A stretch of DNA of 64,000 bases from Porphyra umbilicalis (Eukaryota > Rhodophyta > Bangiophyceae > Bangiales > Bangiaceae), in the NCBI GenBank assembly GCA_002049455.2, contig KV918778.1:421868-485867 (forward strand). Direction: 5' to 3'. The notes under the pieces are model-generated. The model did no database searches and was not told where the DNA came from. It saw only the letters and a list, made by a program, of their open reading frames with translations. Made by a program: the position numbers and the translations under genes. Shown in pieces: positions 17,659 through 56,868 of the stretch (its first letter is position 1; the number at the start of each line of letters is the position of its first letter).

Positions 17659-18362
17659 GGGCCCCGCCCTCAAGACACAAAACCACTCTTTACACCAACG
17701 GCACGGGCACGCGGTGCGCCGCGGGGGCCCGCGGCGGCCCGCCCTCACCACTGCCACGCCGCGCGGAACACGACCACACGGCGGCCGCAGCCGCGCGGGT
17801 GGGGCGCGCCGCGGCCGGCCCGCGCCGCGCCGCCGCGGCCGAGGGGCGCGCCGCCACGGGGCGCGCCTCCATGCCGACGCGCCCCCCCCACCGCCGCCCC
17901 GCCAACGCGGTCGTCCCGCCCACCACCAGCGGCCGCCGCACCCGCGGGTGCTCCGCCGACGCCCGCGACGGCCGCCCGAGGCGCCACCACCGGCGGCACC
18001 CCCCCCCCCCTCGTCCCCAGTCGACCGCCCCCACGGCCGCGCTGCCACCCCCCCCCCCCCGCCGACGGCGCACCGTCGCCACGCCGCCGCCGCGCCGCCG
18101 GCCGCGCCGCGCACCGCCGCAGCCGCGCGCGCGCCCCGCCGGCTGCGTCGCGCCCCGACGGGACGCCGGGCAGAGGCCGCCACGGGCGGGCACGCGCCGC
18201 CGCCGGGGGGGGGGGGCGCGCGGGGACGGCCAGCCCCCCGGCCACCCCCGGCGGCCACGGCGGGCGCGTCCCCCCACCCCCCCCCCCCCCCCCCCCCCCC
18301 CGCCAACGGCGCCCCCCCCCCCCGCGCCCCTCACCGCCGCCCCGGCGGGCGGCGCCCCCCCC
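16214..18362. repeat. Segmental duplication, copy A (QueG segment)
   Basis: This stretch matches 54346-56497 at roughly 99% by eye. It covers the end of intron 2, the main QueG exon and about 700 bp downstream. It ends in a poly-C run directly before the inverted repeat of the large transposon at 18367. Confidence 0.9.
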
Positions 18363-18383
18363 CCAACGTCGGTGAACGCGGCA

Positions 18384-18470
18384 GCCCCAACAGACTGGCT
18401 TTCTGTTCGGGCGTCTGTTGCCGAACAGACGCCGAACAGACGCGATTTTGTTGCTTTGCTGTTCGGGTGC
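18384..18470. repeat. Left subterminal CCGAACAGA repeats
   Basis: About six copies, in both orientations, of CYRAACAGA / TCTGTTCGG lie just inside the left terminal repeat. The matching array at the other end is split by the retrotransposon (29713-29747 and 34671-34745). By analogy with CACTA elements these are candidate binding sites for an element-encoded protein. Confidence 0.7.
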
Positions 18471-18957
18471 ACGGCCTTGGATCGCGAGTTTGCGGGAAAA
18501 ACGGGCGGATGAGCCGGGGCGGGCAGGCACGACAGGTCTGATTAAGGTTTGAGGATCAATCGGCTTAGTCAGACGCAATGCAGTTCCGCCGCGCGCTGCA
18601 ATGCATTGGATGTGCAGTACGACCCCACAGACAATGGCGATGAGCTACATTCCATCGTTCTGACTGCTACAGGAACCACACTACCACGCTACGTTGCTAA
18701 ACATAACAAGTAGGGTGCCCCATCGTCACCTGCCCAGGCGACCACGTCGCATCGCCGAATAAAAAAACAGGGGATCTCTGTTGTGCCGAGCCTGCATCCA
18801 CACGACGGGCAGGCGCTATACCTAACACACAGAACCCAGCGTGCCACAACAGAATAGACGAAAGAGCACCAACTTGGTCGGCCAGCGCGAGCTGATGACG
18901 GAGTCCATGGAGCCATCAAAACGCCTGAGCGACAGGAAGAACGGTGTCGCACCAGGC

Positions 18958-21900
18958 TTAACGACGGACGGCGCGGTACGCCCCCCACTGGGATGCGTGC
19001 TCGTTGCGAACGGGACGGATTTCGTCGTCGTCCTCCTCCTCATCCCAGTCATCGAGCAGCGCGCGCTCTGCCTCCCGACGGGCAGCCTCCGACCCAGGTA
19101 AGAATGGAACACCCGCCGGAAGCGGCGCCAAAGTCAGCGCGCGGGGGGGGGTAGGTAGGACTGGTCCGACAGGGAGGTCGGGCAGGGCGAAGGCAGGGGC
19201 AGCGGGCAGGGAGCCAGCGGCAAGAACGGTCAGCAGGGAGCCAGTGGGCGCAACCGGCGCGGCGGCCAGCGTCCCGGAAGACGCAGAGGAGCGCACGAGA
19301 TGACGGCTTGCGTCAGCACCGTCAATGAGCTGCAACCCTTCGTGAACGTCCGCGTCCTTCGGAAGCAGATGGTGCAGGAGCAGGAGCTCGCGCTCAAACA
19401 AGGAGCGGTGCCCCTGGTTGAGAACTCCGGCACCCGCAGTGACGGACTGCAGTCCGGCGCGGTTCCGAGGAAACGAGCGCACCTGCCAAGAGAAAACCAT
19501 CCAGGAAAAGAAGCAGAGAACGAATCAACACAAGAAGCAGGCAGTTGTCCCGCAAGTGACACTGAACGAGAAGAAGGAGAAGGTCAGGAGCTGTCATGGG
19601 GCCCGCCCGTCACTTCATCAACGAGCAACAACGACACGGCGAAAACATGCTTGTGAGGGACGGAAAGGATACAAGCGGCGCCGTGCGAAAGAACAGACAG
19701 GCACAAGTGCGAACGTACTCGGAATGAAACGCTCGCGAAGTGCCCGTAGAGGCACCGGATGACGCGCGAGGCCTTGTTGGGACCAGACGAGGCAACCATG
19801 GAGGCCGTGCCCTCAATCTCGTCAATGACCTCGGCGAGCGCCTCGAGCATGGCCAACCGACCGTACGCGCCAGTGATGAAAGAGTCGTCTCGCAGTAGCT
19901 CCGTGCATTCCTCAGGCGACAGCTTCAGGATGCGACGAGTGGATGAAGCTATCGAGCTCCAAGTTCCCATGCCCTTGAGCGCATGGACGTTCTTGACGTA
20001 GGTGGAGACAGCGACAGAGGTCCGCGAGCTGCTTAGGTGGCTGACGACGCGCTTGACGTACTGGTAAGCGACGACGAGCGCCATACCCTTTGCCGGCTTT
20101 CTGACAGGGAGCATCATCTTCTTTTGCAGCCTTGCCGCGGCGTCCTCCTCGGACACCTTCAGGACCTCGGCAGCCGCACGCAGCAGGCGGGCGTTGGTGG
20201 TGTCGACCGTAGGGTACACCGACGCAGAAGACGATGCCGCGCGGATGTCGCCGACGAGATACTCGAGGAAGAGCTCCTGCGCGACCAAAAGCCAGAAAAG
20301 AAAACCAAAGCGTTCGATGACATGTGTCAGTGACAGCCATACCCAGGTGGTGGAGCGCTCAGTGGATGCGCACCCAGCAATGGTCACACCGATCAGCTCG
20401 CACGCCGTACAACGCGAGCAATGTAGATGTCACACGACACCGAACTCTCAAAAACAATGCATACTGTACGCCCGTCCCTCTACGTACCTTGATCTCATTG
20501 ATGACACGGACAGTGTCGCCCTCGGTTGTACCGGCACCCCATGAATCGCCACCATCGCGCGCCGCGGGAATGCGGTCTCCAACAGCCTTCAAGGCCTTCT
20601 CCACATGCACCAGGCGCTCCAACACGATCTCGTTTCCCGACTGCATCCCGTCGGTGGTCGCGGCAAGCCCATCCATGCGCCGCAGCACCGACGCGGCCTG
20701 TGACTTGACCACGACTAGTTCCGCCCGAAAGCGTGTCATCTCACGACGCAAAGATGAAAATCCATTGCGAATAGCGTCCTGGAGGTCGTCCAGGGTCAGG
20801 GACGGGGCCCCTTCGACTGTCCTGGGGGGGGGGGGGGGCACAGCCGCGGCGCCGACGGCAGCCGTGCGTGAGGCGCGCGCGGCGCGTCCGCCGCTCGAGC
20901 GGTGACGCTTCCCCGAACTTGGACGCAAGTAGCTAGGCGACGCCAGAAGTGACGCCGTCGGTGACACCGGCGGCGTGATGTAGGCGGCCACGAGTTCATC
21001 GTCGTGCATGTCGCTGCTGCTACCGTCGCCATCGGAGATGGGTGGGGTCGGCGACGTCGGCGTCTGTCCGAAGGACAGGCGGCGAGGCAGTGGCGCCGAC
21101 GCCGACGGCGGCGGCGGCGACGGCGACAGTGTCCGGGCGTCTTGAAGCAAAACACCAACGTCGTGACCCGCGGCGGGAAGACCGCGGGGCATCTGCGGCG
21201 CCGGCGAAGGAAGAGCCCCAGACGCTTGCAGGTGCGGCACGGCCGATACCGCTGCGGAAGTGCCCGGTGTCCAAAAGGTGACCGGGAAGATGTGAGGATT
21301 GCGGCTCCGCGCTGCAAGCAATTCCGCCAATGCGTCACTCGGGAGCGGTGTGCGCACCGTCGGAGGAGTGCGGGACGGCGCACCCCCTCCCACATCCGCG
21401 TCAGGTGCAGAGCGCTTGCGAGACCCACTCGGTGGGACAGAAGCAGTTGACGACGCCGCCGCGTTCCCCTCGCGCTCAGCAGGAGCCGCAGCTTCGGCAC
21501 CGTCTTCATGTTGCGAAGCCCCACGGGCTTCGTGCGTCGCCGCTTCGGCGACCTCATCTTCGCCGTCGACGCCTGAATCGTCCGGGTCATCGTTGCCGTC
21601 GTTGCTCTCAGACTCAGAAGGCAACGAGGGCGTCCGGGCGCGCGCACGAACGGGCAAGAGTTGCATGACAGCCGCCCGGCGCACAAAGCTCCGCCGCGGA
21701 CGGCAAGGCAAGCTCACATAATTGTCCGTGCGGAACAACGACCACTGTGCCGGTGGCATCGCCATCGTCCGCGGCACGTCGTGCCCCGTCGGCAACGCGT
21801 TGACAGCGTTGGTCGACTCGAGAAAACTCGAGTGCGAATCGAAGGCTTGCGTGGCCGACGCCGACGCGCCCTCCTCGCGAGTGCCACGAGAAGACGGAGG

Positions 21901-22917
21901 CTCCGAACGCAGCGGTACCGGCGGCCACGGCATCCGCAGCTGGGCGGCACGGTCAGCGACGATTTTGGCATTGACAGTGTCCCGCGCACGGCTGGCAGCC
22001 GACAAGCGAGCAGCAAACTCCGCACGAGCGACGGCCGCCGCCTCTTTGAGCGTCATCTGGCCGTTATCCGGCACCACCTCGGCGCCCACCGCCACCTCGG
22101 CGCTTGCCGTCACGTTGGCGCCCGCCACCGACTTGGCGCCCGCCGCCCACTTGACGCCCGCCGCCGACTTGGCGCCCGCCGTCACTTTGGCGCCCGCCGC
22201 CGACTTGGCGCCCGCCGTCACGTTGGCGCCTGCCGCCGACGTGGCGCTCGCCGACGACTTGGCGCCCGACGCCATCTCGGCGCCCGTCGTCATCTCGGCG
22301 CCTGCCGCCGACTTGGCGCCCGTCACCGACTTGGCGCGCGTCACCATCTCGGCGCCCGACGCCATCTTGGTGCCCGACGCCGACTTGACGCCCGCCGCTG
22401 ACTTGGCGCCCGCCGCCACGCTGGCGCCCGCCGCGGACTTGGCGCCCGCCGCGGACTTGGACCCCGACGCCATCTCGGCGCCCGTCGCCATCTCGGCGCC
22501 CGTCGCCATCTCGGCGCCCGTCGCCATCTCGGCCCCAGACTGAACATCGGCGCCCGACGCCGCCTTGACGCCCGACGCCGCCTTGGCGACCTCGGCCTCC
22601 TCTTGCAGTACCTCCGTCTTTTGATCGTAGAGCACGACACCGAGGATGCCGCCAAACTTCAGCAGTCGCCCCGGCCGCCCCGAGCCGGAGGGACTGCCGG
22701 CGGAAGACGGCACCGGCGGAGCCCACGTAGAAGGGTCCTCCACATTGATCGGCTCATTGACGGGGCGTTCCACCATGACCACACTCTTGCCCTTTGTGGA
22801 CGTTGCATCCTCCACGTTCAGCAGCGCGTCAACGTCAATGATCTCGTTGTCGGCGTGAAGGGTGGACGACGGCGAGGCGCTATCCGCACCAGAATTTCCA
22901 GGGCCGGCCGACGCCAT
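18958..22917 (-). CDS. Large accessory protein of the transposon, hexapeptide-repeat
   Basis: Unrecognised protein of about 1170 residues in three exons: 22917-20488, 20276-19719 and 19482-18958. The introns (20487-20277 and 19718-19483) have GTACGT donors, CAG acceptors and phase 0 at both junctions, so the model is internally consistent. After an acidic N-terminus (DNEIIDVDALLNVED) come about 28 six-residue repeats of the form AAGAKS/ATGAEM (about residues 110-280). Then follow a Ser/Pro-rich acidic middle, a Lys/Arg patch (SGSRKRSAPD), and a C-terminal part with probable coiled coil (LTLDDLQDAIRNGFSSLRRE). Exons 2 and 3 encode a mixed helical region ending DDWDEEEDDDEIRPVR. It lies inside the large transposon, divergent from its transposase, where En/Spm-type elements often keep a second, DNA-binding protein. 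That role is inference only. Confidence 0.7.
22070..22585 (-). repeat. 18-bp tandem repeats coding hexapeptides
   Basis: About 28 imperfect 18-bp units, seen on the plus strand as variants of ggcgcccgccgccgacttg, lie inside exon 1 of the accessory gene. The repeat length keeps the frame. The encoded units alternate between Lys-Ser and Glu-Met endings. Confidence 0.85.
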
Positions 22918-25239
22918 GATGCCCAGGTGGGAAAATTTGACGACGAGGGAAGTGGGAGGGGGGACCGAGGGTGCGCGGGAGAGGTGGGAGCAAGAGCACG
23001 AGGCAACTGGAAGGAAGGGTGGCAGTCCACAACGGGGGGGGGTGAACAGTCTTCGACACTGTGACGGCTGCCGCGGCGCCGATACTTGTACTCGAGGCGC
23101 CGGCAAGGCACCCGCATGCGCGCGCCCTGAGCCTGTGGCGACCACTCAGCGGGTGGAGCGAGCCACACTACACCAGGCACGCGCAGAACGCAGAGGCGGG
23201 AGGCGATGCAGATGCGAGCACTGCAGCAGCCCGAGACAGGCAATGTCAGACCTAGACCTCCCTGCAAACAGGTACCTCAGCCTGGGACACGCAAAGCCAT
23301 ACGCAAAGCCATACACAAGCGCCTCGGAGGGCGCCAAGGTGCAGGGTGAGTACAGCGCTTCGCGGTACGACCGGCCAACGCGTGCGAAGGTTTTCAACTT
23401 GCAGCCGTATGGCAGCATTGGCTGAGCCTCACGCCACCCACGCCGACACCTACACCCCCGGCCGAGAGGGTGCCAAGTCGTGACGCTCAGGGCAATCGAC
23501 CCATGTCCCCTCGGCGTCAGCCCCAATCGGGACCCCTCGCGGATGGCGCTACGCGCCACACTGAACGCATACACACGCAGACTTGCACCGCCTCTGGCAG
23601 TGAAGTGCCCTTGCAGAGGTCACCCACAGACTGAGAGTGGCTGGCGATACACTCCAGCGACACTGAGAGGTGAAATCACTCTCCGACAAGCATGCATGGC
23701 CATCGTTGGCCATGTCGTTACCACACAGATGTACGTAGAAGCGGCGGAGGTCCAGGCACAGGCATGGCCACGGCATAGGTCGGTGACGAGGGCACCAGGA
23801 CCAGAGCCAGACGGACACCGCTCCGGGTCCCGCAGTCGCGAGAGAGTGGCACCGCAACGGGGCAAGAAGTGCCACGGCCACATACGCAAAAAGGTCGGTC
23901 GACCAAGAGAGTCGAGGACGGCCGCACGTACACGAGGACATTGAGGAAGGCCGGTCCCGCCGCCTGGGCTTGGGGCATGTGGCCGTTCACACGGGCGCCC
24001 AGCATGCATGGAGGAGCTCGCATAGTGGGAGCAGCGAACAGGACGAAGAGGAAACGGCGGGGCCACAGCTCATGTGGGGTCGCGCCGAGGACATCGTCGC
24101 AAGCGGTTGACGGTGACCACAAAGACCGGTTTGTGGGAGAGTGGCCAAGCGTGCAATGTGGGGGGCTGTGTGTTCCAACAAATTGATCAGTCGCAAGCTG
24201 ATCCATTTCATTGCGGGCTGATCAGTATCACGTTCCATGGCTTAATCTCAAGGCAGGCTACCTTTGTTGTGCGCACCACAGAGCTCACTGAGCACCACAT
24301 TGAAGTTTAGATATGAACTTCTTCGAAAACAGTGGGCGATGCACTGGCGCCATTAACGATTTGTTCCGTGTAATCAAGCATCTGGGCCGATACTTTCGAG
24401 ACAAGTCGTGATGGTCACACGCTTCTGTCGTATCCTCATCTCAGTCTTGCCCACAGCCGCGACCTGCACGAGAAGTGGGGCACCGTTGCTGAAGGTCGCG
24501 GCACCGTCATCATCGCTCCTCCACACTGTCGGTTGCTCATACCATACCCGTTTTGGGACCGACACCGCGTAGTGAGTTCTGACGCGTGTCTCGCGGGAGT
24601 GACGTGACATATCAACGGGGAGCGCGGGTGTGCCCCTGGGTGTATCATCGTGGCTTGTGAGCGGGGCCTCTGGGAACTCGGTGGCTCGGCATGACCAGTG
24701 AAGGGCGACCGCGCTGGCCTGCTTCTCTCCAGGGCGACTGACAGTGGTCCACATACTGACATCGTTTCTCCATGTCGCTCGTCCTGTGTTGTGGTCGTAC
24801 CAGCACCGTCTTGTGAGCTCCCATCGCACTCATTCGCTGCTCGTGGTCGCTGTAGCCGCACTGTTCCGGTGAAACTGCCCATCCTCCCTCTTTCTCGCCC
24901 CCGCGCGGGTGTATTCCTAGTTACCGTAGCACCTCCACATTTCCTGTCGACCACCGTGCTACAATCCGCACGTCGCCCTGCTGCTGCGCCGTACCATGTA
25001 TGTTGGAACTGCTTGTTCCCCCTTGTGCTCGCTTCTCGACGTGAGTCGAAGCCTGTTGACGTGAGCACCACGTGGGTCTTTCACGACCTCGTTCATTGCG
25101 AGCCTCCTCTTGTAGTCCACGGCATGCGGGTCCGGTAAGGAGAGTGACGTGGAACTGACTGTCCTTCTTCTCTGAGTCTTCCGATCGATTCCAATGGGTT
25201 TTCTTTCCTTGCTGGTCCGTGCCCTCTTTGGAGTAGATA
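22918..25239. other. Divergent intergenic region of the transposon
   Basis: This separates the accessory gene (minus) from the transposase gene (plus). It holds no supported gene; open frames here lack motifs. The segment 24430-25200 is pyrimidine-rich on the plus strand and may be leader or promoter sequence of the transposase. Confidence 0.5.
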
Positions 25240-28200
25240 ATGGAGCGAGACTCGCTCTGCTGGTTTTGTCCACGGGTCTTTTTCGGGCAGGCGGCGCGCA
25301 GCCGCCACATGAGCGTCAGGCACCCGGGGAAGAACCGGCTAGTACCACCTCCGGGCTTTATCGAGCTCAACCTCCGGCCTCGTGAGGATGAGCAACGCAA
25401 CACAGAGGCGGACGAGCACCACTCCGTCACGCCTCGTGCCACGGATGCAGGCTTGGGTGCTCTGTGCGCTGATGATGCTGACGCAGGGCATCCTCAACTC
25501 GGCGGTGTCGGTATGTTCCAAGTGCCTATGGACGGATATGTGCGCGGCACGCTGCCCGCGCGCAGGCCACGGACGGTCTTCCACACGTCGATTGTCGCGC
25601 TGAATAGGGCTTACTATGAGGCAATGACCGAGACGAGCAAGACGAGGCGCCTCGTGCACCCGTCCAAGGGGCAACGACCTTCCCGCTTCAACACCCCGCT
25701 TCTACGAGAAGCTCTCAAGTTCGCGATCAGTGCAGGAGGCGCGGGGCTCTCCACGGCGGACCAGCGCTGGTACATGTCCGTCATGGTGATGGCCGAGGCG
25801 GGCAGTGCGGCGCCGAGTGCGGGTGGCGACGGACGCGACGGTGCCCGTCGTCTCAAGCGCCCCCGACTTACCACTGCCACAGAGGGTGAGGGCGGGGTGT
25901 CCTACTACAGCGGTGAAGACCGCGCTGACGCGTTGCACGAGGAGGGCGAGTGGTCAGAGTCCGAGAGAGGGGAACTGGCGATTGCGTTCCCCACCAAGAG
26001 TTCATTTGTCGCTGCTGTTCGTGAGGAGCAGCGACGCGTACTATCCAAGCTCTTTTGGGACGAGACGCCGCTGGAGGTGGAGGGCGTCAAGTACTTGTTT
26101 TACTCAAGGGACCTCCTCCTGGCGGCGCTCGACTTGCTCCAGAACGCTGGACGCGTGCAGCTCTGGGGAGAGGAGCTGGGTGTGGGGCCTGACGGCACGC
26201 GCTTGCGGTTGGAGATTATGGACAGCGACGGCATGCTTCAACGCTGCCTTGCTATTCTTCTACGACGCTTCGTGGGTGCCAGTCAAGATGGCGTACAGGT
26301 GGAGTTTCCCGGTCAGAGCACACTGACCGCTGTGCCGCGGCTGGTCTGGCTGGTCGCCGACCAGATTGGTGAGCGCTCTGTCGTTTGTCTGATGGGTAAT
26401 GCGTGCGAATTCTTTTGTTCTCATTGTGTGGTGCGAAGGGGCGCGGAGCATGGACCGGCCGGCGTCGGTGCGGGGCATCGCGACGTGACGGCTGTGCTGG
26501 ACGCACAGTTGGAAGGCGCAACCACGCGCGACCGCGACCCACGGCCGTCCCTGCGCAACCACTTACGTGCGCAACACAGTGCGCTGGCCTTCGTGCCGGC
26601 CAACGGTGCAATTTGGGGCCTTGCCACCGACGAAAAGCATCTCTACGACATCATCTCGTTCGACTTGCTACACGTCTGGAAGCTCGGCGTCGTGCGAATG
26701 GTGGCGCAGCGCTTTCCCTCATTCTTGCGGGTCACCTGTTCAGGTCAAGACGCTCGGCTTGGACCTGTGCCTGCAACTTTGGAGGCCCTTAATCTACGCG
26801 CGTGGGAGATGGAACACCTTTGCATACCTTCGCCGAGGCCACCTAGGTACGTTGCACTGCTTTTATGTATTGCTTTCTCTATCCACTGTAGTCACCCGGC
26901 TGCCCACGCCCACCTTGCTGCGCGCAGACCTCCGCGAATTGTCTATGGCAACTGTCAGGGTGGTCTCTTCCGCCTCAGCGTGTGTATCTGTCACGTTGTG
27001 TCACAGCTATTCCCGTCCAACGCTGAGGCCGACACCCGTCGCCTCTTCCGCACCTTGTGATTGTGCTTTCCGTGCTGCCGCCTCTCTGTGCAGTTGCTGA
27101 CGCTGTTGGGGCTCCCAGGTGCGACCATGTATCATGTTTCCTGTTCACTGTCGTGTCGTTGTGCAGTTTTTCTCGTGCCCCCAACAGAAAAGCAGCTACA
27201 AATGACTGGACGCCTCTGGCGACATGGTCTGGCAATGATTCCACACATGATGCCAGGAGTCGGTGGGCCAGCGGAGCAGCCCCCCACGCGGCACTCGGGT
27301 GCCGCACCCGTCCAAGCAACTGTCTCACAGCGACGATCGGTCTTCCAAAGTGACGAGCTTGACGACGGTCACGGTCCTGAGGGTGCTTTGCTCGCACCGG
27401 CAGAAGAGGTTCTCCCCGATCCAGTGGTGCCCGACGTTACAACTTCCACCAAGTACCAAGAACTGTACGGGAACCTTCCGCTGCACAGAGCTGTCGTGGA
27501 CGTGTATTGTCGTATGGCCGCACTCGGTGGCCGGCTAATGGGCGACAATATGGCGGATACGACGACAATGTCCGAGACGCAGATGCGCGACGTCGCCAAC
27601 GAGGCTCGCGACTTCATCATTAATCGAGTCGACCTCCTGTTTGGGCCTGCGCACACGACCAAGTCTCATCGACTTGCCGGTCACCTACTGGTGGCGCTGC
27701 TCAACAATGGCAACTTATGGGAGGGAGATACCAGTGAGAACGAGAGCCTTCATGGCGTTTTCAAGAAGATGTACGCGCGTACAAACAAGCGTGGGCCCTC
27801 CATGGTGTTGCAGATGATGCGTGCGACGGAGACGCAGACCGAGGTGCTACGCGAGCTAAGGCAGCTAGTTGACGCAGAGAATGAGGACGACGACGGCGTG
27901 CACAGCCTTCTGGAGGCGGCCACTGACGCCGGTGACGTACCCACGGAGCCAATTGTGACGCTACCGCGGTCCCACCTCGGACAGCGCCTCGTTGTTGGTG
28001 AGGCGCAGTCAAGGCCGGGGATGGCGGGGCTGGGGGAGTTGCTTGCCGTGGACTCTGACTGCTCTATGGTCGTGTCGCCGTCCTTTTTGTTCTTTTGTAC
28101 CTTCGAGTGGGGCGCTCGGTCTGTTACACAAACGGTATGTGCGACCGAGTCGTACGTGGGCGAGCCCAGGTACGACCACATTTGGTTCACAGACCAGAGT

Positions 28201-28575
28201 GGCCTGCGGCGGTTGGGGTGGGCGCGGTTGGTTGTCCGGATGCTGGGCGGCGCTGTGGACGACTTTGTCATCGTTTGGTGTATGGAGGAGGTACCGTCGA
28301 TACCCGACTGTGCTCTGACGCGGTCGGGCTGCCGGCGGATGGCGTGGAGCTTTGCTGGTCACGACGCGGAGTGGCCGGACCTTGCTCGCGTGCCGCTGAC
28401 CAGTGTGCTGCGACTGGAAAACGTCGTTGTGGACTTTCAGGATCTGCGTGACCGGCGTGGCCTGAGAGCTGTTCCTTCCAACACGCCAGACACTGCTGTT
28501 GAGCGTCACGCCGCGCGCTTCTTCACCAACGTTTTTTACCCATTCACCTCACGTGTGCTCAATCCCAGCAGCTAG
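25240..28575 (+). CDS. TNP2/Plavaka-like DDE transposase
   Basis: Predicted transposase of the large DNA transposon. It starts at an ATG with good context (ataATGG). An N-terminal C2H2 finger (CWFCPRVFFGQAARSRHMSVRH without the first Cys context; C-x2-C...H-x5-H) comes first. Next is a conserved block with LVADQIGERSVVCLMGNA and a CSHC knuckle, then FDLLHVWKLGVVRMVAQRF, which matches the second-acid region of TNP2 proteins. The C-terminal exon has ENESLHGVFKKMYARTNKR, the probable third acid. An in-frame stop at 27058 and non-conserved sequence between about 26847 (GTACGTTG donor) and 27187 show at least one intron, whose exact ends were not resolved. Both parts are in the same frame. Classification as CACTA-like versus Plavaka/KDZ needs a profile search. 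Confidence 0.75.
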
Positions 28576-29712
28576 CTGGCCACGACATTGTGGGCTGCAG
28601 GCGTCTTGTGGGGTGATCAGGCACGCCGGCTGGCCGCGCACTGGCGCTCTACGCAGCAAGCCTACGGTCGCGCGGGTGATAACCGCCACCGCGGGGCGCC
28701 TGACGACAACCGCCGTCCGTGCGATGACCTCACTGCCTGGGAATCGGCGGCAGCCGACTCTGTAGATGACAACTGGAGCCCTGTCTGTGCCGCGGCGTCG
28801 CCGAGGCGTGGGCGGTGGCGGTGTCGAGGCGTGGGTGGTGGGGGCGGTGCCGCCTCGAGTAAGGCTACCATTGTCATGGCTGCGGCTGAAGCTGCAAGTC
28901 GGCCATGGCGGTGCCGAGGCGTGGGCGGTGGCTGCGGCGCCGCCTCGAATACGGAGACCATTTCCATCGCTGCGGCAACAGCTGCAAGGCAGCACGTCGT
29001 GCACGGCCGGTTAGTGTGTCCGCGCCGGCAGTGGCGCTGGCGCACCCGGCGTGGCCACTCGCGGCAGCTGCCATCGCCCCGTCGGTGAAACCTGCTGTGC
29101 TGTGCTGGTAGCCAAGGAAGGGCGGCAGGGTGAGGCGGGTTATGGACCCGTGATGTAGCTGTCCTAGTGGATTGGGCGGCGCGGGCGTCGGGGGGAGCAT
29201 CGGCCGGAAAGGGTGGGTACTGGTCGATAGTGAGTCTAGGTGGGGCGGTCTGTTGGTGTGGTAGCGACCGACCGGTGCCAAGTCGACGAACAGAAAGTGA
29301 GGTTCCCTCATGGGTGCTTCCTGTGGATGAATGCATATGGGCGTGACACCTGCGTCACGGTGACGACGACCATTCTCTTTTGTTTGGGCCGGCTTCGCAC
29401 CAAAGCGGAGGAGTGTGTCCTCTAAAGCACCCTTTGTTGGCTCTCCAGGTGCGTTAGCTCTGCCACCCTCCAAGTTTAATCGGCACACTGCTCGTCGGAG
29501 AACCGAAGTAAGTGACGTGGCAATGATCAGACCAAGTCATGGTCTCGATCTCAGGCACTCCCCTGTGCGGGAGACTAAGTCTCAGAAACCCTACTATTCG
29601 AGCCCCCTACTCAGCAAAGACCCCTGTAGTCCGCTTAATAGCCAAGAAAGATCCGTGGCTGCGACGAGGTCCTGGCACATGTCCCACGTCCCCTCGAGAC
29701 AGGGTAACAGCG
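28576..29712. other. 3' region of the transposon, partial duplication
   Basis: No supported gene. Two related blocks of 80-100 bp (28802-28900 and 28910-28995), each beginning gaggcgtgggcggtgg and ending near agctgcaag, form a short direct duplication. The frames across it are not protein-like. Confidence 0.4.
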
Positions 29713-29747
29713 GCGCCGAACAGAATTGCGTTCTGTTCGGGGTTTGT

Positions 29748-29999
29748 TATGGCCGAGTTGAGCCTGCGGAGCCACGGGGTACCCCGCAAGGGCCGGCCGA
29801 AAACCGGCCGAGCGCGGGGCGCTGGGCACCCGGGGGGTGTGGGGGGCTACTCCCCCCGCCCCCTCCCGGGCGCGGCGGACGCAGGACGCGGCCCGCCACA
29901 CAGGGGCGCCCCGCCACCAGCCGGCGCCGGGGGTTTATCTCCCCGGCTGACGGCCAAGGGAACGCGAGGGGAGACCGGCAAGCACTTCCCAGTCTCACC
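29748..29999 (+). repeat. Split direct repeat A1
   Basis: 252 bp, essentially identical to A2 at 34166-34417. It forms the 5' end of the retrotransposon and precedes the gag frame. Confidence 0.9.
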
Positions 30000-30024
30000 A
30001 CGACCGACGTCGTCGTGAGACTGG
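29989..30024. repeat. Hairpin at the A1 boundary
   Basis: CCAGTCTCAC and GTGAGACTGG flank a second pair, ACGAC/GTCGT, giving a stem of 15 pairs with one mismatch. The A1/A2 identity stops inside this hairpin (29999), and A2 lacks the right half. Confidence 0.7.
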
Positions 30025-30068
30025 AAGGTTCCCGGGGGGCCTCCCCGTGGTTACGCTGAACTTTGAGT

Positions 30069-31070
30069 ATGGCTGACGCTGCCGCCGCCGCTGCTGCCGC
30101 TGCCGCCGACGCCAACGCCGCCGACTTTCTGGTAGCGGCCGAGGGCCATGGCGACGGCAACGGCGCCCCCAACCTTGCTGCGGCCATCAACGGGATCATG
30201 GCTGGTCTGGGCAGCATCACCGACCGCCTCAACGCCCTCGAGCTTCAAGCCGAGCAAGCTGCGTTGGGCGGCACCGCTGCGCCCCCGGCCGGCGCGAGGA
30301 TCGCCCTAGTTGCCGGCGGCGCGGCAAACGCGGCAGGTGGTCAGCCCCCTTCCCCCGTCGGCGGCGACGCCGGCCTGGCGGTCGCCCTCGCCGACGGCAT
30401 CGCGCGGGCCATCCGCGAGTCACTTCGCGGCCGGCGCAGCGTGTCTTCGAGTGACGACGACGACGACTCCCGTACGCCCACCTCCTCGTTCACTGACCAG
30501 CGGGCTCGGCGGTGCGTCACCCGGGGGGAACCGCTGGTCTACTTCCAGGTACCCCCGAGTGCACGGACGAGTTTCCCCGCCCCCTACCAAATGGAGACGC
30601 TGCGTTACCGCGACGACTTCCCACCATCGGAGCCCTGCGCCGAAGCGGATGAGGCCAAGCACCTCACCATCATCGGGGCTTGGAGCTCGAGCATGCACAA
30701 CGAGCTGCTCGCGTTCACCGACTCGGCGGGGTACGGGGACGTCAAGGAACTGCAAGCCCTCCTCCTCCGCTCGCGCGTCTACCACCACCAGCTCGCCGAG
30801 CTCTGCGCCGCGCGGTATGACGTCCTCAAAGAACCTGACGCGGCCATCGCCGCCCAGCTCCAGGAGCGGATGCTCGCCCCCGCCGACACGCACGCCTCCA
30901 AGGCGCGGCGCACCCTCGAGGTCGAAACCCTTAACCTGCGCGACCGCGGGCTCAACAAGAGCATCGCCGCGCAACAGATCAAGGACGTCGCGGCTTCGGG
31001 ACGGCGACGGGGTCGGCGCGGCCGGCGCGCCCAGGGCGAGAAGGGGGACGGGGGCAACCCGTCCAAGTAA
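30069..31070 (+). CDS. Gag-like protein of the YR retrotransposon
   Basis: 333-residue protein starting MADAAAAAAAAAA, with an alanine-rich N-terminus, a conserved-looking middle (YFQVPPSARTSFPAPYQMET; LLRSRVYHHQLAELCAARYD) and a basic tail (RRRGRRGRRAQGEKG). No zinc knuckle is present, as is common in DIRS-type Gag. The position, first frame after A1 and directly before the RT frame, supports the call. Confidence 0.75.
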   Translation: MADAAAAAAAAAADANAADFLVAAEGHGDGNGAPNLAAAINGIMAGLGSITDRLNALELQAEQAALGGTAAPPAGARIALVAGGAANAAGGQPPSPVGGDAGLAVALADGIARAIRESLRGRRSVSSSDDDDDSRTPTSSFTDQRARRCVTRGEPLVYFQVPPSARTSFPAPYQMETLRYRDDFPPSEPCAEADEAKHLTIIGAWSSSMHNELLAFTDSAGYGDVKELQALLLRSRVYHHQLAELCAARYDVLKEPDAAIAAQLQERMLAPADTHASKARRTLEVETLNLRDRGLNKSIAAQQIKDVAASGRRRGRRGRRAQGEKGDGGNPSK

Positions 31071-31071
31071 G

Positions 31072-33405
31072 GCGGAAGAGGTCCGCGGGGTGCCGCTCGC
31101 CCCTCTTGCTGCCAAGCTTGGCGCGACGGACGGACCAAGGAGCGGCGCTGTGCCCGGCTTGCCACTGGCGCAGCGACTCAGAGACGCGGCCGACGCCTGG
31201 CGGGAGATCGGAGCCTCCCGCTGGGTGCGGCGCGCACTGAAATACGGCTTGAGGCTCCCGTGGCAGACGCCACGGGGCCGCCCGCGGCGGCGGACGCGCC
31301 CCTACCCGGTATCCAAGAAGGACCGCAGCTTCGTGGCGGACGAAGTGGAGCGGTGGGTGTCGGCGGGATTTATCCGCCCCCTCACCAAGGCGGAGACGCT
31401 GGCCGTGCCATGCGTCTCGCCGGCGTTTGTGAGCTGGGCGCGACAAGACAAGCCCCGGCTGGTCGTTGACCTACGCCAGGTGAACGAGCACCTGCGGGAC
31501 ATCAAGTTCAAGTACGAGGCCATCACGGAGTTTATGGCCGCGCTCCATCCCCACGACAACCTAATCTCGTGGGACGTTAAGGACGCGTACCACCACGTGT
31601 TTATACACCCAGCCGACCGCGCCTACCTGACATTCGCCATCGACGGCCGGGCTTTCGAGCCCATCACTATGCCCTTTGGTCTCTCGGTTGCGCCGTGGGC
31701 CTGGACCAAAGTCATGCGGCCGGTGCTCGCGTACCTGCGCAAGTCGGGTTTCACCCTCATTGGGTACGTCGACGACCACGGGGCGGCGCCGCCGGGCTCG
31801 CGGCCGACCTCCAAGGCCGAAGCCGCCAAAGGGTTCCGATTCGTCACGTTGCTCTACCAGCGACTCGGGCTCGCGCTGCACCCGTCCAAGGGTGAGCGCG
31901 CCGGTACCCAGCAGCTGACCCTGCTCGGCTTCACCGTAGATACGGCCGCCAACCAGGTACGGCTCCCCGACGCGCGACTCGCACGCTTGCGCGGCACGGC
32001 CGCCGCCGTCCTGGCGTCGGCGTCGTCAAACCGGCGCTGGGTTAGGCGTAAGCCCTTAGAGAGCGTCGCGGGAATTATCGTATCAGCAAGCCTGGCAATT
32101 CCCGAGGCGAGATTGTTCACTCGGGCAATCTATGATGATCTCGCGCGCGCGGCGGCGACGGGCGGACTACGTGGCGACTGCCACCTCTCGCACCAGTCGC
32201 TTCGTGACCTGCGGTGGTGGGCAAACTTTGGCCGCGCCGGGCACGGGCGGCCGCTCTGGCCGCGCCCCCCCGCCCACACCTTGCACACCAACGAGTCGGG
32301 GCTTGGCTGGGGTGGGGTCGCGGACGAGGCCACCCCCGCCCGCGGCGCCTTCACCGGCGCCGCAGCCGACTGGCACATCAACGTCAAGGAGGTGGCCGCC
32401 ATACGGCTGTCCCTCACCGCGCTCGCCCCGGTGTTCGCGGTTGGTGACGTCGTGCGGGTGATCACGGACTCCCGCGTTGCCTTACACGTCGTCAACGCGC
32501 TGGTGTCCCGGTCCGTGCCCCTGTGCGCGGAAGTGCGCCGCCTCTACGCCGTCGCGCAGCGGCTCGGCGTCACCCTCGACGCCGAATGGATTCCAACGGC
32601 GGACAATGTGTGGGCGGACCGGCTGAGTCGAACAAGAGAGTCAACCGCGTGGCGTTTGACGACGACGTTCTCCGCCGCGCTGGATTCTCTGTACGGCCCG
32701 CACGCCGTCGGCAGGTTCCCGACACTCCTAGCGGCGCTGCCCTCCTCCGACTCGCCCGACTCGGTCCGGCGCCCGGGGTGGTCCAACCCACTCGACTGGC
32801 GGTGGACGCGGGCCAACAACTGGGTCGAGTCGCCGTTCAACACGATCCCACTGGTGTTGGACCTGATCAAGCAGCAACGGGTGACCGCGACGGTGGTCGT
32901 CCCTGTGTGGCGCGCGCAGCCCTGGTGGCACGCGGCGATGCAGCAGGCCGACGAGGTGTGCTACCTGCCGCGGCGGGCGGGGGTGCCCCTCCGCGACGCG
33001 GGCGGAGCGCAGGGCTCCCGGCCCCACTGGCGAGTGTGCGCCCTCCGGTTCACACGCGGCGGGCGGGTGCCGCCGCGGCGGCCTGGGCAAGCGCGGCAAC
33101 GGCAATCGGCGAGCACACCTTTGGTTACGGCCCCGGCGCGGCGGCTGCCGCGTCGATGCTTGCCAACCAACTTGCCGGGTCCACCCGGGACAACTACGCC
33201 GCCAAGTGGTCGTCGTTTGTGGACTTCTGCCAAGCCAGCGGGTACCCCCCCTTGCCAACCACAACCGAGGTGGTCGCCTGCTACCTCGACGAGCTGTACG
33301 AGCGGGGCACCGTCGCGCCAGGCACCCTGCAAAACTACCTCACGCCGATCAACTCTGTCCACGCCCTGTGCCAGCTCGAGAAGCCGGCGGTCGGCCCGAT
33401 GCTGA
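31072..33405 (+). CDS. Reverse transcriptase-RNase H of the YR retrotransposon
   Basis: Polymerase frame in +1 relative to gag, continuous from the gag stop. The RT domain shows FIRPLTKAE, KPRLVVDLRQVNEHL, WDVKDAYHHVFIHP, MPFGLSVAPWAWTK and the catalytic YVDD (31765-31776). RNase H follows: HTNESGLGWGG, NVKEVAAIRLSL, VITDSRVAL and DNVWADRLSR. The first RNase H acid, normally Asp in TDASGxGWG, is Asn here (codon 32290-32292). The frame begins without an obvious ATG, so translation may need frameshifting or reinitiation. It overlaps the recombinase frame by about 350 bp. Confidence 0.9.
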   Translation, partial: AEEVRGVPLAPLAAKLGATDGPRSGAVPGLPLAQRLRDAADAWREIGASRWVRRALKYGLRLPWQTPRGRPRRRTRPYPVSKKDRSFVADEVERWVSAGFIRPLTKAETLAVPCVSPAFVSWARQDKPRLVVDLRQVNEHLRDIKFKYEAITEFMAALHPHDNLISWDVKDAYHHVFIHPADRAYLTFAIDGRAFEPITMPFGLSVAPWAWTKVMRPVLAYLRKSGFTLIGYVDDHGAAPPGSRPTSKAEAAKGFRFVTLLYQRLGLALHPSKGERAGTQQLTLLGFTVDTAANQVRLPDARLARLRGTAAAVLASASSNRRWVRRKPLESVAGIIVSASLAIPEARLFTRAIYDDLARAAATGGLRGDCHLSHQSLRDLRWWANFGRAGHGRPLWPRPPAHTLHTNESGLGWGGVADEATPARGAFTGAAADWHINVKEVAAIRLSLTALAPVFAVGDVVRVITDSRVALHVVNALVSRSVPLCAEVRRLYAVAQRLGVTLDAEWIPTADNVWADRLSRTRESTAWRLTTTFSAALDSLYGPHAVGRFPTLLAALPSSDSPDSVRRPGWSNPLDWRWTRANNWVESPFNTIPLVLDLIKQQRVTATVVVPVWRAQPWWHAAMQQADEVCYLPRRAGVPLRDAGGAQGSRPHWRVCALRFTRGGRVPPRRPGQARQRQSASTPLVTAPARRLPRRCLPTNLPGPPGTTTPPSGRRLWTSAKPAGTPPCQPQPRWSPATSTSCTSGAPSRQAPCKTTSRRSTLSTPCASSRSRRSARC

Positions 33406-34112
33406 CGGCGGTGCGGCACGGCTACGCCCACAAGTACGCCAGCGCCCACGACGGGCTACGCGACAAGCGGGTGCCGCTGCCCGCCGCCGTCCTGATGCGA
33501 TTGTTGGAACTGGGGCGCGCCACGACCGACGTCGCTCTGCGTCGGCGCATGGCAGGGCTCGCCCTGACCGCACTCACCTTTGCACGCCCGGGAGGAGGGG
33601 CAAATCTCCGCCTACAAGACGTCACCCTCCAGCCGACGGCCATCACAATCCAGATTGCTAACTACAAGCACGGGGCGCGCGCCAACCGCGAACGCCTCGT
33701 CATCCGCATCCCCCGGCGCGCGGCGGGTGCCGCCGACTCGGCCTATGACTTGGTCCACGACCACGTCGCCGCCATGATCCTGGCAAAGGCCGCGCCGGCG
33801 CAGTACCTGTTTACGCCGTTGGGCGACTCCACACCGCTGCCCACCGAGGCGGCGACCGTGTGGATGCGGGAGGGGCTCTACCTTATCAACGTCAGCGCGC
33901 CAGCGGGTGCCCTCTACTCGGGGCACTCCCTCCGGGCGGGCGCCGCCACGGGCGCCCGTAGCGTCGGGTGCGAGCTCGACGCCATCGCGACGCTCATGGG
34001 AATGAAAAACAAGAGCACAACCACGGTGTCGGCAAACTACGTCGACGCCCTGGCGGAACCGGACGCCGCCGCACGGGAACTCTACGACCGCTACCTCGTC
34101 TTACGACGCTGA
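33060..34112 (+). CDS. Tyrosine recombinase of the YR retrotransposon
   Basis: Integrase-like recombinase that would insert the circular element. The core-binding part has STRDNYAAKWSSFVDFCQ; catalytic residues are Arg in LTFARPGGG (33585), the HSLR box (His 33924, Arg 33933) and the nucleophile Tyr in SANYVDAL (34038-34040). The C-terminus is VLRR, stop at 34110. The frame is open from further upstream (32523), overlapping the RT frame, and the true start is not clear. It is the same frame as gag. Confidence 0.88.
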   Translation, partial: RAGAAAAAWASAATAIGEHTFGYGPGAAAAASMLANQLAGSTRDNYAAKWSSFVDFCQASGYPPLPTTTEVVACYLDELYERGTVAPGTLQNYLTPINSVHALCQLEKPAVGPMLTAVRHGYAHKYASAHDGLRDKRVPLPAAVLMRLLELGRATTDVALRRRMAGLALTALTFARPGGGANLRLQDVTLQPTAITIQIANYKHGARANRERLVIRIPRRAAGAADSAYDLVHDHVAAMILAKAAPAQYLFTPLGDSTPLPTEAATVWMREGLYLINVSAPAGALYSGHSLRAGAATGARSVGCELDAIATLMGMKNKSTTTVSANYVDALAEPDAAARELYDRYLVLRR

Positions 34113-34134
34113 TGCGGCGCCTTCTCCATCGGTT

Positions 34135-34167
34135 GCTACCACGTCCAGACGGCGGCCCGACGGGGTA
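34135..34167 (+). repeat. Split direct repeat B1
   Basis: 33 bp beginning GCTACCACGTCCAGACGG, identical to B2 at 34638-34670, and directly followed by A2. Confidence 0.9.
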
Positions 34168-34417
34168 TGGCCGAGTTGAGCCTGCGGAGCCACGGGGTAC
34201 CCCGCAAGGGCCGGCCGAAAACCGGCCGAGCGCGGGGCGCTGGGCACCCGGGGGGTGTGGGGGGCTACTCCCCCCGCCCCCTCCCGGGCGCGGCGGACGC
34301 AGGACGCGGCCCGCCACACAGGGGCGCCCCGCCACCAGCCGGCGCCGGGGGTTTATCTCCCCGGCTGACGGCCAAGGGAACGCGAGGGGAGACCGGCAAG
34401 CACTTCCCAGTCTCACC
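34166..34417 (+). repeat. Split direct repeat A2
   Basis: Copy of A1 (29748-29999), positioned between B1 and B2. About 220 bp of unique sequence separates it from B2. Confidence 0.9.
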
Positions 34418-34637
34418 CGACCGACCACCCCGCCATCTCGCCCCCTCGCTTTTTCTTTCCCCTCGCCTTGCTCGTCGGGCCTGGCGCCGTCCGCCAGCCC
34501 CCTTCCCAGTCTGGGTTCCCTTGGTTGCCTCGACAAGTGTGGAGTGGCTCGAGCGCCCCGTCGCTCTCGCGAACCAACGACCTGCGTAGCATGTCGTAAC
34601 TTGCATCTAATTTTCAATTAAATCTCATAGTTCATTG

Positions 34638-34670
34638 GCTACCACGTCCAGACGGCGGCCCGACGGGGTA
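34638..34670 (+). repeat. Split direct repeat B2
   Basis: Identical to B1; forms the 3' end of the retrotransposon. The next bases, CCCGAACAGAC, belong to the right subterminal repeats of the host transposon. Confidence 0.9.
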
Positions 34671-34767
34671 CCCGAACAGACGGCCGAACAGATTGGCATC
34701 TGTTCTCATGTTCCCGAACAGGCCATTCTGTTCGGCGTTCTGTTGGGCTGCCTCGTTTACCGACGAA

Positions 34768-35076
34768 CGGCGACGGCTTCACGAGCGGGTCCATCTCCAT
34801 TGGGAAGGGGCCACCGCCGCCGCCGCCGCCACGGACGGGCGGGGGGGTGGGCGACGCGGCGGCGGCCGCCGCCGCGCGCGCGGCGGCCACAAGCGCGCCT
34901 CCGCCCCCGCCGCCGCCGCCGGTCGCCGACGCTGCCGCCGTCGGAACGCCCGCCGAGGTGTAGGACGACGCTGCAGCCACGCCGGCGGCAGCGGCAGCCG
35001 GGGTGGCGTCGCCGCCGCCGCCGCTGCCGACGCCGGGAGTTGCCGCGTACGGGCCCGCCGCGGGGCGGGCGGCGAG
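34768..35076 (-). pseudogene. CDC26-like gene fragment, start lost
   Basis: This is collinear with 56498-56802 at visibly lower identity (about one difference per eight to ten bases). It encodes the Ala/Gly-rich part and the MEMDPLV segment of the CDC26-like protein on the minus strand, but the N-terminal conserved MLRRLPTPIELT part is absent: homology ends at 35076 and unrelated sequence follows. Its 3' side abuts the right end of the 16.4-kb transposon, so the gene is broken on both sides. Confidence 0.75.
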
Positions 35077-35393: not shown

Positions 35394-35660
35394 TGTTAGG
35401 CACCGCCAGACGGCCGTGCCCAACGGCGGCACGTGTCACCCGCCGCGGGCGGGTCGACGGGGAGATTGGTCGTGGATGGATTGCGTGGGCGACTTGTGAC
35501 CACGGACTGCGCGGGAGTTGTGACGAGTGTCAGCGAGGGTCCGCGATTGATGACGTGAGATTCCCGGTCGGTCCGCTGGGCTGTCTTGGGGGAGATATAG
35601 GGGTGGGCGTGGCGCGGCCACAGCCACTCGCATAAACGGACCAACGTGCATGACTTGACA
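35394..35660 (+). repeat. Copia 5' LTR
   Basis: 267 bp, TG...CA ends, three transitions relative to the 3' LTR. A short A/T-rich motif, gagatatagg, lies near 35588 and could be a promoter element. Confidence 0.93.
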
Positions 35661-54345: not shown

Positions 54346-56497
54346 GACACGCCATCTCTCCTCCCCCCCTCCCCCCCCCCCAACCGCCGTGTCTTCCCTT
54401 GCGCACCGCCCTCAGTGCGGCGCTCGCTGGGCGGCAGCCGCCCCCCCCAGCATGCACGGGGAGATGGGCTACCTCGCCCGCCCCGACCGGCTCGCGCGAC
54501 GGCGGGACTTGAACCTCATCCTCGCGGGCGTCGGCTCCGTCATTGTCACGTCGCTCATGTATTGGCCGGGCACGGACGGGTTTCCGCCGTCCCACCGGGT
54601 GGCGCCGCCGCTGCCGGCGGGTCGGCGGCGGGCACGCGCGGCGGCGGCGGCGCGGGCGGCAGCGGCAGCAACGGCCGCGTCGGCGGCGCCGCCCACCGCA
54701 GACAGCCCCCCCGCGTCGGCCGTGCCGGCCGCCGCCGCCGCCGCCGCCGCCGCACGCGCGGCTGGGGACCCCCCCCTCCCCCCCCCGAGCCCGCCCGCGG
54801 CATCGTCTCGGCCTACGCGTGGGGCGCCGACTACCACACCCTCCTCGGCGGCCACTTGCACGCGCTCGCCACGTCCCTCCACGCTGCCGCCGGCGGCGTC
54901 GGCCGCTACTATGTCGACACGGGGGCGGTCTTTGAGCGCGACTTTGGCGCCCGCGCGGGCCTCGGCTGGGTCGGCAAAAACAGCATGCTCATCCACCCGC
55001 GGCTCGGCTCGGGGTTTTTTCTTGGGGAGCTCCTGTCGACGCTCCCGCTGCCGGCCGACGTGCCGCCCGTCGGCAAAGCGCGCGGCGGGTGTGGCGGGTG
55101 CACCCGCTGCCAGGTGGCGTGCCCGGCCGGCGCGCTGTCGACGGACTACGTCGTCGACGCGCGGCGGTGCGTGTCGTACCTGCCCATTGAGCTCAAGGGG
55201 CCCATCCCCGTGGCCCTGCGGGCGGGCCTCGGCGGCCGCATCTATGGGTGCGACGTGTGCCAAGTCGTGTGCCCGTGGAATGGGTTCGCGTGGGAGTCGG
55301 GCGGCGGCGGCGGCGCCGCGGCGCCGCGGGAAGGGACCTCCCCCGCCCCCGCCGTACCGGCGGCGACCGGGGGCGGGAGGAGCCCCCTCTTTGGCGCCGT
55401 CGCCGCCGACACGACCTCCCCCGCGCTCCTGCCGTTGTTGACGGCGACCGAGGCGCAGTTTCGGGGCCGCTACGGCGGCTCGGCGGTCGGCCGCATTGGG
55501 CGGGAGCGGATGGCGCGCAACGCCGCCGTGGCGCTCGGCAACGTGGGGGGGGTGCCCTCCGTGGGCGCCCTCGACGCGGCGGCGGTGGGGGACCCGTCGG
55601 CGCTGGTGCGGGAGCACGCTGCGTGGGGGGCCGCCCGGATACGGGAGCGGTTTGGGTTGTTGAGGGGGAGGGCGGGGGGGGTGCAGCGCATCGACGGGGG
55701 GGGGATGACGCTGGGGGGGGGGGGCGGGGGGGAGCGGGAAAGACGAGCGCCGGCGGCGGCAGAGGGGCCGCGGGAGCGCGTGGGGGGGTAAGAGCCCCGC
55801 CCTCAGACACAAAACCACTCTTTACACCAACGGCACGGGCACGCGGTGCGCCGCGGGGGCCCGCGGCGGCCCGCCCTCACCACTGCCACGCCGCGCGGAA
55901 CACGACCACACGGCGGCCGCAGCCGCGCGGGTGGGGCGCGCCGCGGCCGGCCCGCGCCGCGCCGCCGCGGCCGAGGGGCGCGCCGCCACGGGGCGCGCCT
56001 CCATGGCGACGCGCCCCCCCCACCGCCGCCCCGCCAACGCGGTCGTCCCGCCCACCACCAGCGGCCGCCGCACCCGCGGGTGCTCCGCCGACGCCCGCGA
56101 CGGCCGCCCGAGGCGCCACCACCGGCGGCACCCCCCCCCCCCCCCGTCCCCAGTCGACCGCCCCCACGGCCGCGCTGCCACCCCCCCCCCCCCGCCGACG
56201 GCGCACCGTCGCCACGCCGCCGCCGCGCCGCCGGCCGCGCCGCGCGCCGCCGCGGCCGCGCGCGCGCCCCGCCGGCTGCGTCGTGCCCCGACGGGACGCC
56301 GGGCAGAGGCCACCGCGGGCGGGCACGCGCCGCCACCAGGGGGGGGGGGGGCGCGCGGGGATGGCCAGCCCCCCGGCCACCCCCGGCGGCCACGGCGGGC
56401 GCGTCCCCCCATCCCCCCCCCCACCACCGCCCGCCAACGGCGCCCCCCCCCCCCGCGCCCCTCACCGCCGCCCCGGCGGGCGGCGCCCCCCCCCGAC
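54346..56497. repeat. Segmental duplication, copy B (QueG segment)
   Basis: About 99% identical by eye to 16214-18362. The left breakpoint lies inside what is QueG intron 2 in copy A; the right edge runs without interruption into the CDC26-like gene. Confidence 0.9.
54450..55791 (+). pseudogene. queG: QueG duplicate lacking exons 1-2
   Basis: Carries the whole main QueG exon (MHGEMGYLARPDR through the iron-sulfur clusters CGGCTRCQVACP and CDVCQVVCP to the HEAT-like C-terminus) but none of the upstream coding exons. The sequence before 54346 is unrelated. The frame change in the Ala/Pro linker is the same as in copy A. Unlike copy A, it reaches an in-frame TAA at 55789-55791. Substitutions from copy A include Pro to Ala (LPG/LAG), Tyr to Phe (NGYA/NGFA) and Thr to Pro (YLTI/YLPI). 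A new start within the exon would remove part of the N-terminal domain. Confidence 0.8.
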
Positions 56498-56868
56498 GGC
56501 GAAGGCGTCACGAGCGGGTCCATCTCCATTGGGGAGGGGCCGCCGCCGCCGCCGCCACGGATGGGTGGCGGGGTCGGCGACGCCGCCGCCGCCGGTGCGC
56601 GCGCGGCGGATACGGGGGCGCCGCCGCCGCCGCCGCCGCCGCCGGTCGCCGCCGACGCCGCCGCCGTCGGGACGCCTGCCGGGGTGTAGGGCGACGCTGC
56701 CGCCACGCCGGCGGCGGCGGCGGCCGGGGTGGCGCCGCCGCCGCCGCCGCTGCCGCCGCCGGGAGTGGCCGCGTGCGGGCCCGCCGCGGGGCGGGCGGCG
56801 AGGTAGGCGTGCAGCTCGTCCACGTCCTCCTGCGTCAACTCGATCGGCGTCGGGAGGCGGCGGAGCAT
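55822..56868 (-). CDS. CDC26/APC12-like anaphase-promoting complex subunit
   Basis: The ATG at 56868 opens MLRRLPTPIELTQEDVDELH and continues AYLAARP. This matches the highly conserved N-terminus of CDC26, the small APC/C subunit whose first residues insert into the Cdc16/APC6 superhelix. The rest is Ala/Gly-rich with SPMEMDPLVTPSPS and no family similarity. CDC26 proteins are normally under about 120 residues, whereas the open frame here runs on for 349, into the duplicated QueG segment, so the true end or an intron is not determined. A remnant lacking the start lies at 34768-35076. Confidence 0.65.
   Translation of the reverse strand: MLRRLPTPIELTQEDVDELHAYLAARPAAGPHAATPGGGSGGGGGATPAAAAAGVAAASPYTPAGVPTAAASAATGGGGGGGGAPVSAARAPAAAASPTPPPIRGGGGGGPSPMEMDPLVTPSPSGGGAARRGGGEGRGGGGRRWRAVVGGGMGGRARRGRRGWPGGWPSPRAPPPPGGGACPPAVASARRPVGARRSRRGARAAAAARGAAGGAAAAWRRCAVGGGGGVAARPWGRSTGDGGGGGCRRWWRLGRPSRASAEHPRVRRPLVVGGTTALAGRRWGGRVAMEARPVAARPSAAAARRGPAAARPTRAAAAAVWSCSARRGSGEGGPPRAPAAHRVPVPLV

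Follow-up and report, generated by a model that had tools for sequence, protein, structure and literature searches.

The window analysed here, a 64-kb stretch of the Porphyra umbilicalis genome (assembly GCA_002049455.2, contig KV918778.1, positions 421,868 to 485,867) with a GC content of 68%, holds a Plavaka-like DNA transposon that carries a two-exon transposase gene and a divergently oriented companion gene (Table 1). Of its 16.4 kb, 4.9 kb (29748-34670) are a separate retrotransposon, without which the DNA transposon measures about 11.5 kb. An earlier note on this DNA had described a nested transposon with defined termini, and such an element is real, with boundaries at 18367 and 34765, inverted ends and AA on both sides. 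The nesting is real as well, but the inner part is a PAT-like retrotransposon, which the note had missed. An Rfam scan of the window at gathering thresholds gave no match.

The ends of the element, CGTCGGTGAACGCGGCAGCC and CGTCGGTAAACGAGGCAGCC, stand in inverted orientation and are of the type CGTCG..CGACG. The short sequence CCGAACAGA occurs eight times in the window when both strands are counted, compared with 0.45 occurrences expected from base composition, and all eight sites are inside the element, either near its ends or at the junction with the retrotransposon. If the retrotransposon is omitted, the right subterminal repeats form a continuous alignment with those of related copies.

Table 1. 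Features of the transposon and its surroundings (window coordinates; ORF, open reading frame)
Feature	Position	Strand	Remarks
DNA transposon, Plavaka-like (CACTA-Mirage-Chapaev-Transib/RAG1, CMCT, clade)	18367..34765	.	16399 bp with nested retrotransposon, ~11.5 kb without
AA target duplication, left copy	18365..18366	.	
Left terminal inverted repeat	18367..18393	+	CGTCGGTGAACGCGGCAGCCCCAACAG
Left subterminal CCGAACAGA repeats	18402..18440	.	one -, two +
Divergent companion gene	19584..23145	-	ORFs of 928 and 281 amino acids, probably intron-joined; conserved C-terminal domain
Transposase exon 1	25240..26850	+	N-terminal C2H2-type finger, D2 (VADQIGER), C(2)C (CSHC), FDLLH
Junction of in-frame 84-residue (252-bp) deletion	26225..26229	.	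segment kept in siblings
Transposase exon 2	27166..28575	+	H(4)H (HRLAGH), catalytic Glu (NESLH)
Right subterminal CCGAACAGA repeats, inner part	29716..29740	.	separated from right end by retrotransposon
PAT-like tyrosine-recombinase retrotransposon	29748..34670	+	A1 - ORFs - B1 A2 - B2
A1 direct repeat	29748..30008	+	
Reverse transcriptase ORF	30310..33405	+	RVT_1 38.3 bits, cut-off 29.6; weak Dam-like methyltransferase stretch
Tyrosine recombinase ORF	32448..34112	+	Phage_integrase, below cut-off
B1 short repeat	34135..34165	+	
A2 direct repeat	34166..34425	+	99.6% identical to A1
B2	34426..34670	+	final letters same as B1
Right subterminal CCGAACAGA repeats, outer part	34672..34735	.	
Right terminal inverted repeat	34739..34765	-	minus strand reads CGTCGGTAAACGAGGCAGCCCAACAGA
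AA target duplication, right copy	34766..34767	.	
Flank duplicate with unoccupied insertion site (GA)	54346..56802	+	

Related copies and the target-site rule

In the genome searched (83.8 Mb in 665 contigs), the left terminus has at least 58 matches (40 of 62 candidates scored), of which at least 41 reach E<1e-15, and a related subfamily end was counted 63 times, versus 0 for a reversed-pattern control. The terminal inverted repeat pattern with two mismatches is found at 55 and 49 places, and its reversed control at 21 and 19, so only ends that are paired or linked to a transposase were used. Ends begin with CGTCG in the window subfamilies and with CGTCA in copies C80 and C126, the distant families having CGTCA or CGTCAG-type ends.

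Pairs of ends were selected on their termini, without regard to duplications. The main set has 32 pairs, 23 of which show an exact 2-bp target duplication, and two distant elements read by eye, C80 (AT/AT) and C126 (AC/AC), raise the total to 25 of 34 pairs, or 25 of 30 independent pairs, where chance would yield 8% each. Of the nine pairs with no exact duplication, five are copies of the CGTCGCTGGACG subfamily (C25, C127, C138, C164 and C47; L017-L020 and L023) and are counted as one because their flanking sequence (TG/CT) is shared for hundreds of bases outward, these copies having been amplified along with a larger repeat. As to further exceptions, C73 fits a 3-bp GTG duplication, and C95, C324 and C115 mismatch at one base. 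All 25 exact duplications are AN or NT (GT 7, AC 4, AT 4, AA 3, TT 3, AG 2, CT 2), which chance predicts for 29% each, and seven of eight single ends fetched also fit this rule by eye, the exception being C86 with CA.

Both ends bracket transposase and companion in the window and in C50, C117 and C81, and in C40 they bracket a first-exon piece together with the companion. A right end is present at seven of 12 further transposase loci, for which 2.5 kb downstream were searched. At C78, C160, C277 and C202, all among these seven, it has 4-7 mismatches of 27, and at the distant loci C33, C44 and C230 CGTCAGAA-type ends were recognised by a looser pattern used without a control. The end at C62, at 8 mismatches of 27, is at control level (10 of 324 control windows reach 8), and no end was found within 2.5 kb downstream at C82, C6, C290 or C61, a looser match at C61 not being counted. 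The earlier note had let its case depend on a constant 2-bp duplication, on copies with the same boundaries and on the joint occurrence of termini and transposase; the first two hold in most copies, to the extent of the 25 independent pairs given above, and the third likewise survives at most loci.

A short subfamily of about 1.2-1.3 kb, non-coding in size, has CGTCGCTGCAGG ends (C2, C26, C28, C115, C253, C310 and others), and C40 is a long element with these same ends.

Transposase

The two transposase exons are connected in P0095, a transcriptome protein by its name; the end of exon 1 was placed from P0095, P0100 and the sequence, and the start of exon 2 is likewise a predicted position. Compared with the metagenome protein P0110, from which it differs by eye at two residues outside the deletion, the window ORF has lost 84 residues, among them the putative first catalytic Asp, and about 250 bp are retained at this site in C117 (L029) and C81 (L025). 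Because this residue is missing, the window copy is probably mobile only in trans, with the enzyme of a sibling. The remaining motifs D2, C2C, H4H and E are all retained. Across ungapped alignment rows, D1 is conserved in 40/41, D2 in 40/40 and E in 40/41, the two Cys residues of C(2)C in 44/45 and 39/42, and the two His residues of H(4)H in 39/40 and 41/41.

The Plavaka-type domain PF18759 exceeds the Pfam cut-off in six of the ten T1 homologues scanned, nine of which had been chosen with this domain precomputed. Siblings in the genome above the cut-off include C50, C62, C6, C82, C290, C117 and C96. A scan of the genome gave 123 matches at E<=0.001, five of them marked as below cut-off and some in long open frames, while 14 control genomes gave none. 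In a comparison of 37 hand-picked rows, at least 22 of the matches precede exon 2 in register. The window copy itself (12.1 bits), L037 (22.3) and L038 (21.0) are below the cut-off, and P0100 has no match. The TNP2/Plavaka-like transposase proposed in the earlier note is therefore borne out by the siblings and the conserved D-D-C2C-H4H-E series, and the profile search that it had suggested for the protein at 25240-28575 supports the Plavaka alternative, albeit with the window copy itself short of the threshold, and not the KDZ (Kyakuja-Dileera-Zisupton) one.

In a Foldseek search with the transposase model, RAG1 and HzTransib head the list as the nearest DDE structures, with modest scores, and a profile search of solved structures relates the N-terminus to C2H2 fingers (best E 0.0023) and returned no RAG1 or Transib chain. 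The second exon of the window has 36% identity to a protein of Pyropia yezoensis. The highest PF18759 scores, at C230:108335, C234:108139 and other places, belong to loci absent from the listings of searches with the window transposase, so that a second Plavaka lineage is probably present in the genome. In C81 a 2.87-kb insert with its own CGTCGGCGGT-type inverted ends lies between the transposase exons (L025:3007-5876).

Companion gene

The large divergent gene of the earlier note is confirmed as the second gene of the element. After further pieces of the same loci had been omitted, 87 of 110 transposase rows were left for comparison with the 68 partner rows, less one fragment that was removed before the count. 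A partner match lies within 25 kb upstream in 48 of the 87 rows, head-to-head in 47 of these 48, at a median distance of 6.7 kb in close and 6.3 kb in distant rows; a downstream match is seen in only two of the 87. The 39 rows with no upstream partner comprise 6 of 25 close and 33 of 62 distant rows, some of which lie at the end of a contig or may have diverged beyond the reach of the query.

In the distant families the companion is one open frame (844 amino acids in C126, 954 in C80), and its C-terminal region, ahead of which long helices are predicted, is conserved across families. A companion protein of this genome is 80% identical to a Porphyra umbilicalis protein over the region searched. 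Pfam gave nothing for two distant companions and, for the 281-residue ORF of the window, a Senescence match below cut-off only (16.4 bits, cut-off 24.6). Foldseek yielded no convincing fold match (best E 1.7), and the VIA matches of the companion, which involve mainly a long helix (residues 1-88), were not used. An 18-bp minisatellite of about 28 copies lies within the companion ORF at 22081-22588.

Empty site and nested retrotransposon

The flanks of the element (16213-18363 and 34767-35076) are collinear with 54346-56802, and their joined sequence aligns to this duplicate, in which GA replaces AA at the insertion point, just as the earlier note had claimed. In a genome search with the right flank, the window locus and the duplicate are the only full-length matches among those listed. 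Divergence from the empty site amounts to 33 of 2156 alignment columns (1.5%), with 12 more in gaps, on the left flank and to 30 of 304 aligned bases (9.9%) on the right, an inequality (Fisher p 3e-12) that gene conversion on the left arm could have caused. Because the divergence is so unequal, the flanks give no single date, and direct dating was dropped. What stands of the dating proposed in the earlier note is the position of the insertion after the duplication; the order of events is duplication, DNA transposon, retrotransposon, a relative order with no absolute age. The duplicated left flank includes part of a QueG-like epoxyqueuosine reductase gene, and a 267-bp direct repeat, 98.9% identical, is found in the window at 35394-35660 and 40050-40316.

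The nested element has the split direct repeats (A1..B1 A2..B2) and the reverse transcriptase of PAT-like elements, as defined in excerpts of PMC3266345 and PMC6681497. Its matches to Phage_integrase (17.6 bits against a cut-off of 27.1) and to Dam (16.5 bits against 28.1) both fall short. It resembles TOC and kangaroo in its A1 - ORFs - B1 A2 - B2 arrangement, reverse transcriptase and tyrosine recombinase, with no difference in the features tested, and is here located inside a DNA transposon. A second PAT-like retrotransposon, with 574-bp direct repeats, lies near the left end of C25-group elements (L017-L020 compared with L021 and L023); it is absent from C11, and C47 retains one repeat as a solo remnant. 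A genome search for Tet_JBP gave no match, but this is uninformative since the control genomes were blank too.

Discussion

We regard it as highly probable that the element, with its two genes, is a cut-and-paste DNA transposon from a Plavaka-like lineage within the CMCT clade, and that its history and movement are as follows. The transposase, a zinc-finger DDE enzyme, would recognise the termini (5'-CGTCG), presumably cleave there and excise the element, and insertion at a 2-bp staggered AN or NT target would produce the 2-bp duplication. The subterminal CCGAACAGA repeats are the most likely place of action of the companion, as subterminal repeats are for TnpA in CACTA elements. The window copy would have inserted next to one copy of a 2.5-kb duplication that already existed, and the PAT-like retrotransposon would later have entered its right subterminal repeats. 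With the transposase segment that holds the putative first catalytic Asp lost, movement of this copy would need a sibling enzyme.

The companion may instead be a passenger, or a gene taken from the host that plays no part in transposition; in favour of this, it has no convincing domain, fold or family match and is missing upstream of part of the close and many of the distant transposase rows. We nevertheless think this unlikely given that the companion accompanies transposases only 33-45% alike, nearly always head-to-head and at about 6 kb, and that its C-terminal region has been kept across families. The duplicate at 54.3-56.8 kb might be an excision product rather than a site that was never occupied, with GA in place of AA as a trace of repair; the duplicate, however, holds no second dinucleotide or terminal remnant, and a single substitution suffices to explain the GA, making excision a rather improbable history.

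Related reverse transcriptase and recombinase genes are present inside the C25, C127, C138 and C164 elements, and Plavaka-flanked clusters with tyrosine recombinases, with database matches that include red algae, are described for Amoebidium in an excerpt of PMC11244446. A composite element in which these genes moved as transposon cargo would account for both, yet it is very improbable here because the nested element has complete split direct repeats of its own, and because in the C25 group the retrotransposon has another position and orientation, C11 being unbroken at that spot and C47 keeping a one-repeat remnant; the cargo explanation was dropped after C11, C47 and C25 had been compared. 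Membership of KDZ, suggested by the TNP2-like look of the transposase and by an earlier placement of Plavaka close to KDZ by the author of PMC12730594 (which that paper corrects), is the least credible alternative of all. Duplications are 2 bp here and, by that paper, 8 bp in Zisupton and 7 bp in Kyakuja; scans of window, homologue and sibling proteins gave Plavaka and no KDZ Pfam match; and the C(2)C and H(4)H motifs are present. KDZ was dropped on these three grounds.

By their titles, open-licence papers on Plavaka concern mostly fungi, and also the protist Amoebidium and one green alga, and the terms "red alga" and "Rhodophyta" are absent from the main text of PMC12730594. No title or abstract opening among the open-licence papers listed describes the element, although Repbase was outside this search and we do not call the element undescribed. 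With its 123 domain matches, Plavaka is a diversified group in this bangialean red-algal genome. Since its ends are defined, its target rule is simple and its partner gene is conserved, the lineage offers a testable system for asking if, and in what way, RAG1-clade transposases employ second proteins, and the window provides an ordered series of duplication, DNA-transposon insertion and retrotransposon insertion. More tentatively, and with the odds somewhat against it, the lineage may be a deep red-algal branch of the RAG1/Transib/Plavaka group in which a dedicated second protein, encoded head-to-head, binds the subterminal repeats and is needed for transposition or licenses it. Such a system, with CGTC ends and an AN/NT target rule of its own, would be an independent counterpart to TnpA/TnpD and, more loosely, to RAG1/RAG2.

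The element shares with CACTA/EnSpm (Spm) a CMCT transposase, short subterminal repeat arrays and two element-coded proteins, but it lacks CAC ends, duplicates 2 rather than 3 bp and has two separate divergent genes, the companion being a presumed DNA-binding protein only. Transib duplications are 5 bp. The ends also differ from those of Transib and RAG1, chains of which do not appear among the sequence matches to solved structures, whereas the motif order D-D-C2C-HxH-E is that of RAG1 and Transib (excerpt of PMC12730594) and the predicted fold has them, at modest scores, as its nearest DDE neighbours. In the same excerpt, PlavakaA is defined by TGT..ACA ends and a 2-bp duplication, PlavakaB by CATCA..TGATG ends and one of 2-3 bp, and CMCT ends are 5'-CA..TG-3' in most cases; the ends CGTCG..CGACG correspond to none of these, the duplication length agrees, and PF18759 is found in the lineage though not in the window copy. 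Our element is thus like the fungal PlavakaA and PlavakaB of that excerpt in its PF18759-type DDE transposase, its C(2)C and H(3-4)H motifs and its duplication length, and unlike them in its CGTC..GACG ends, conserved divergent companion and red-algal host. The Plavaka-type enzyme is known; the combination of CGTC ends with a conserved partner gene sets this element apart from them.

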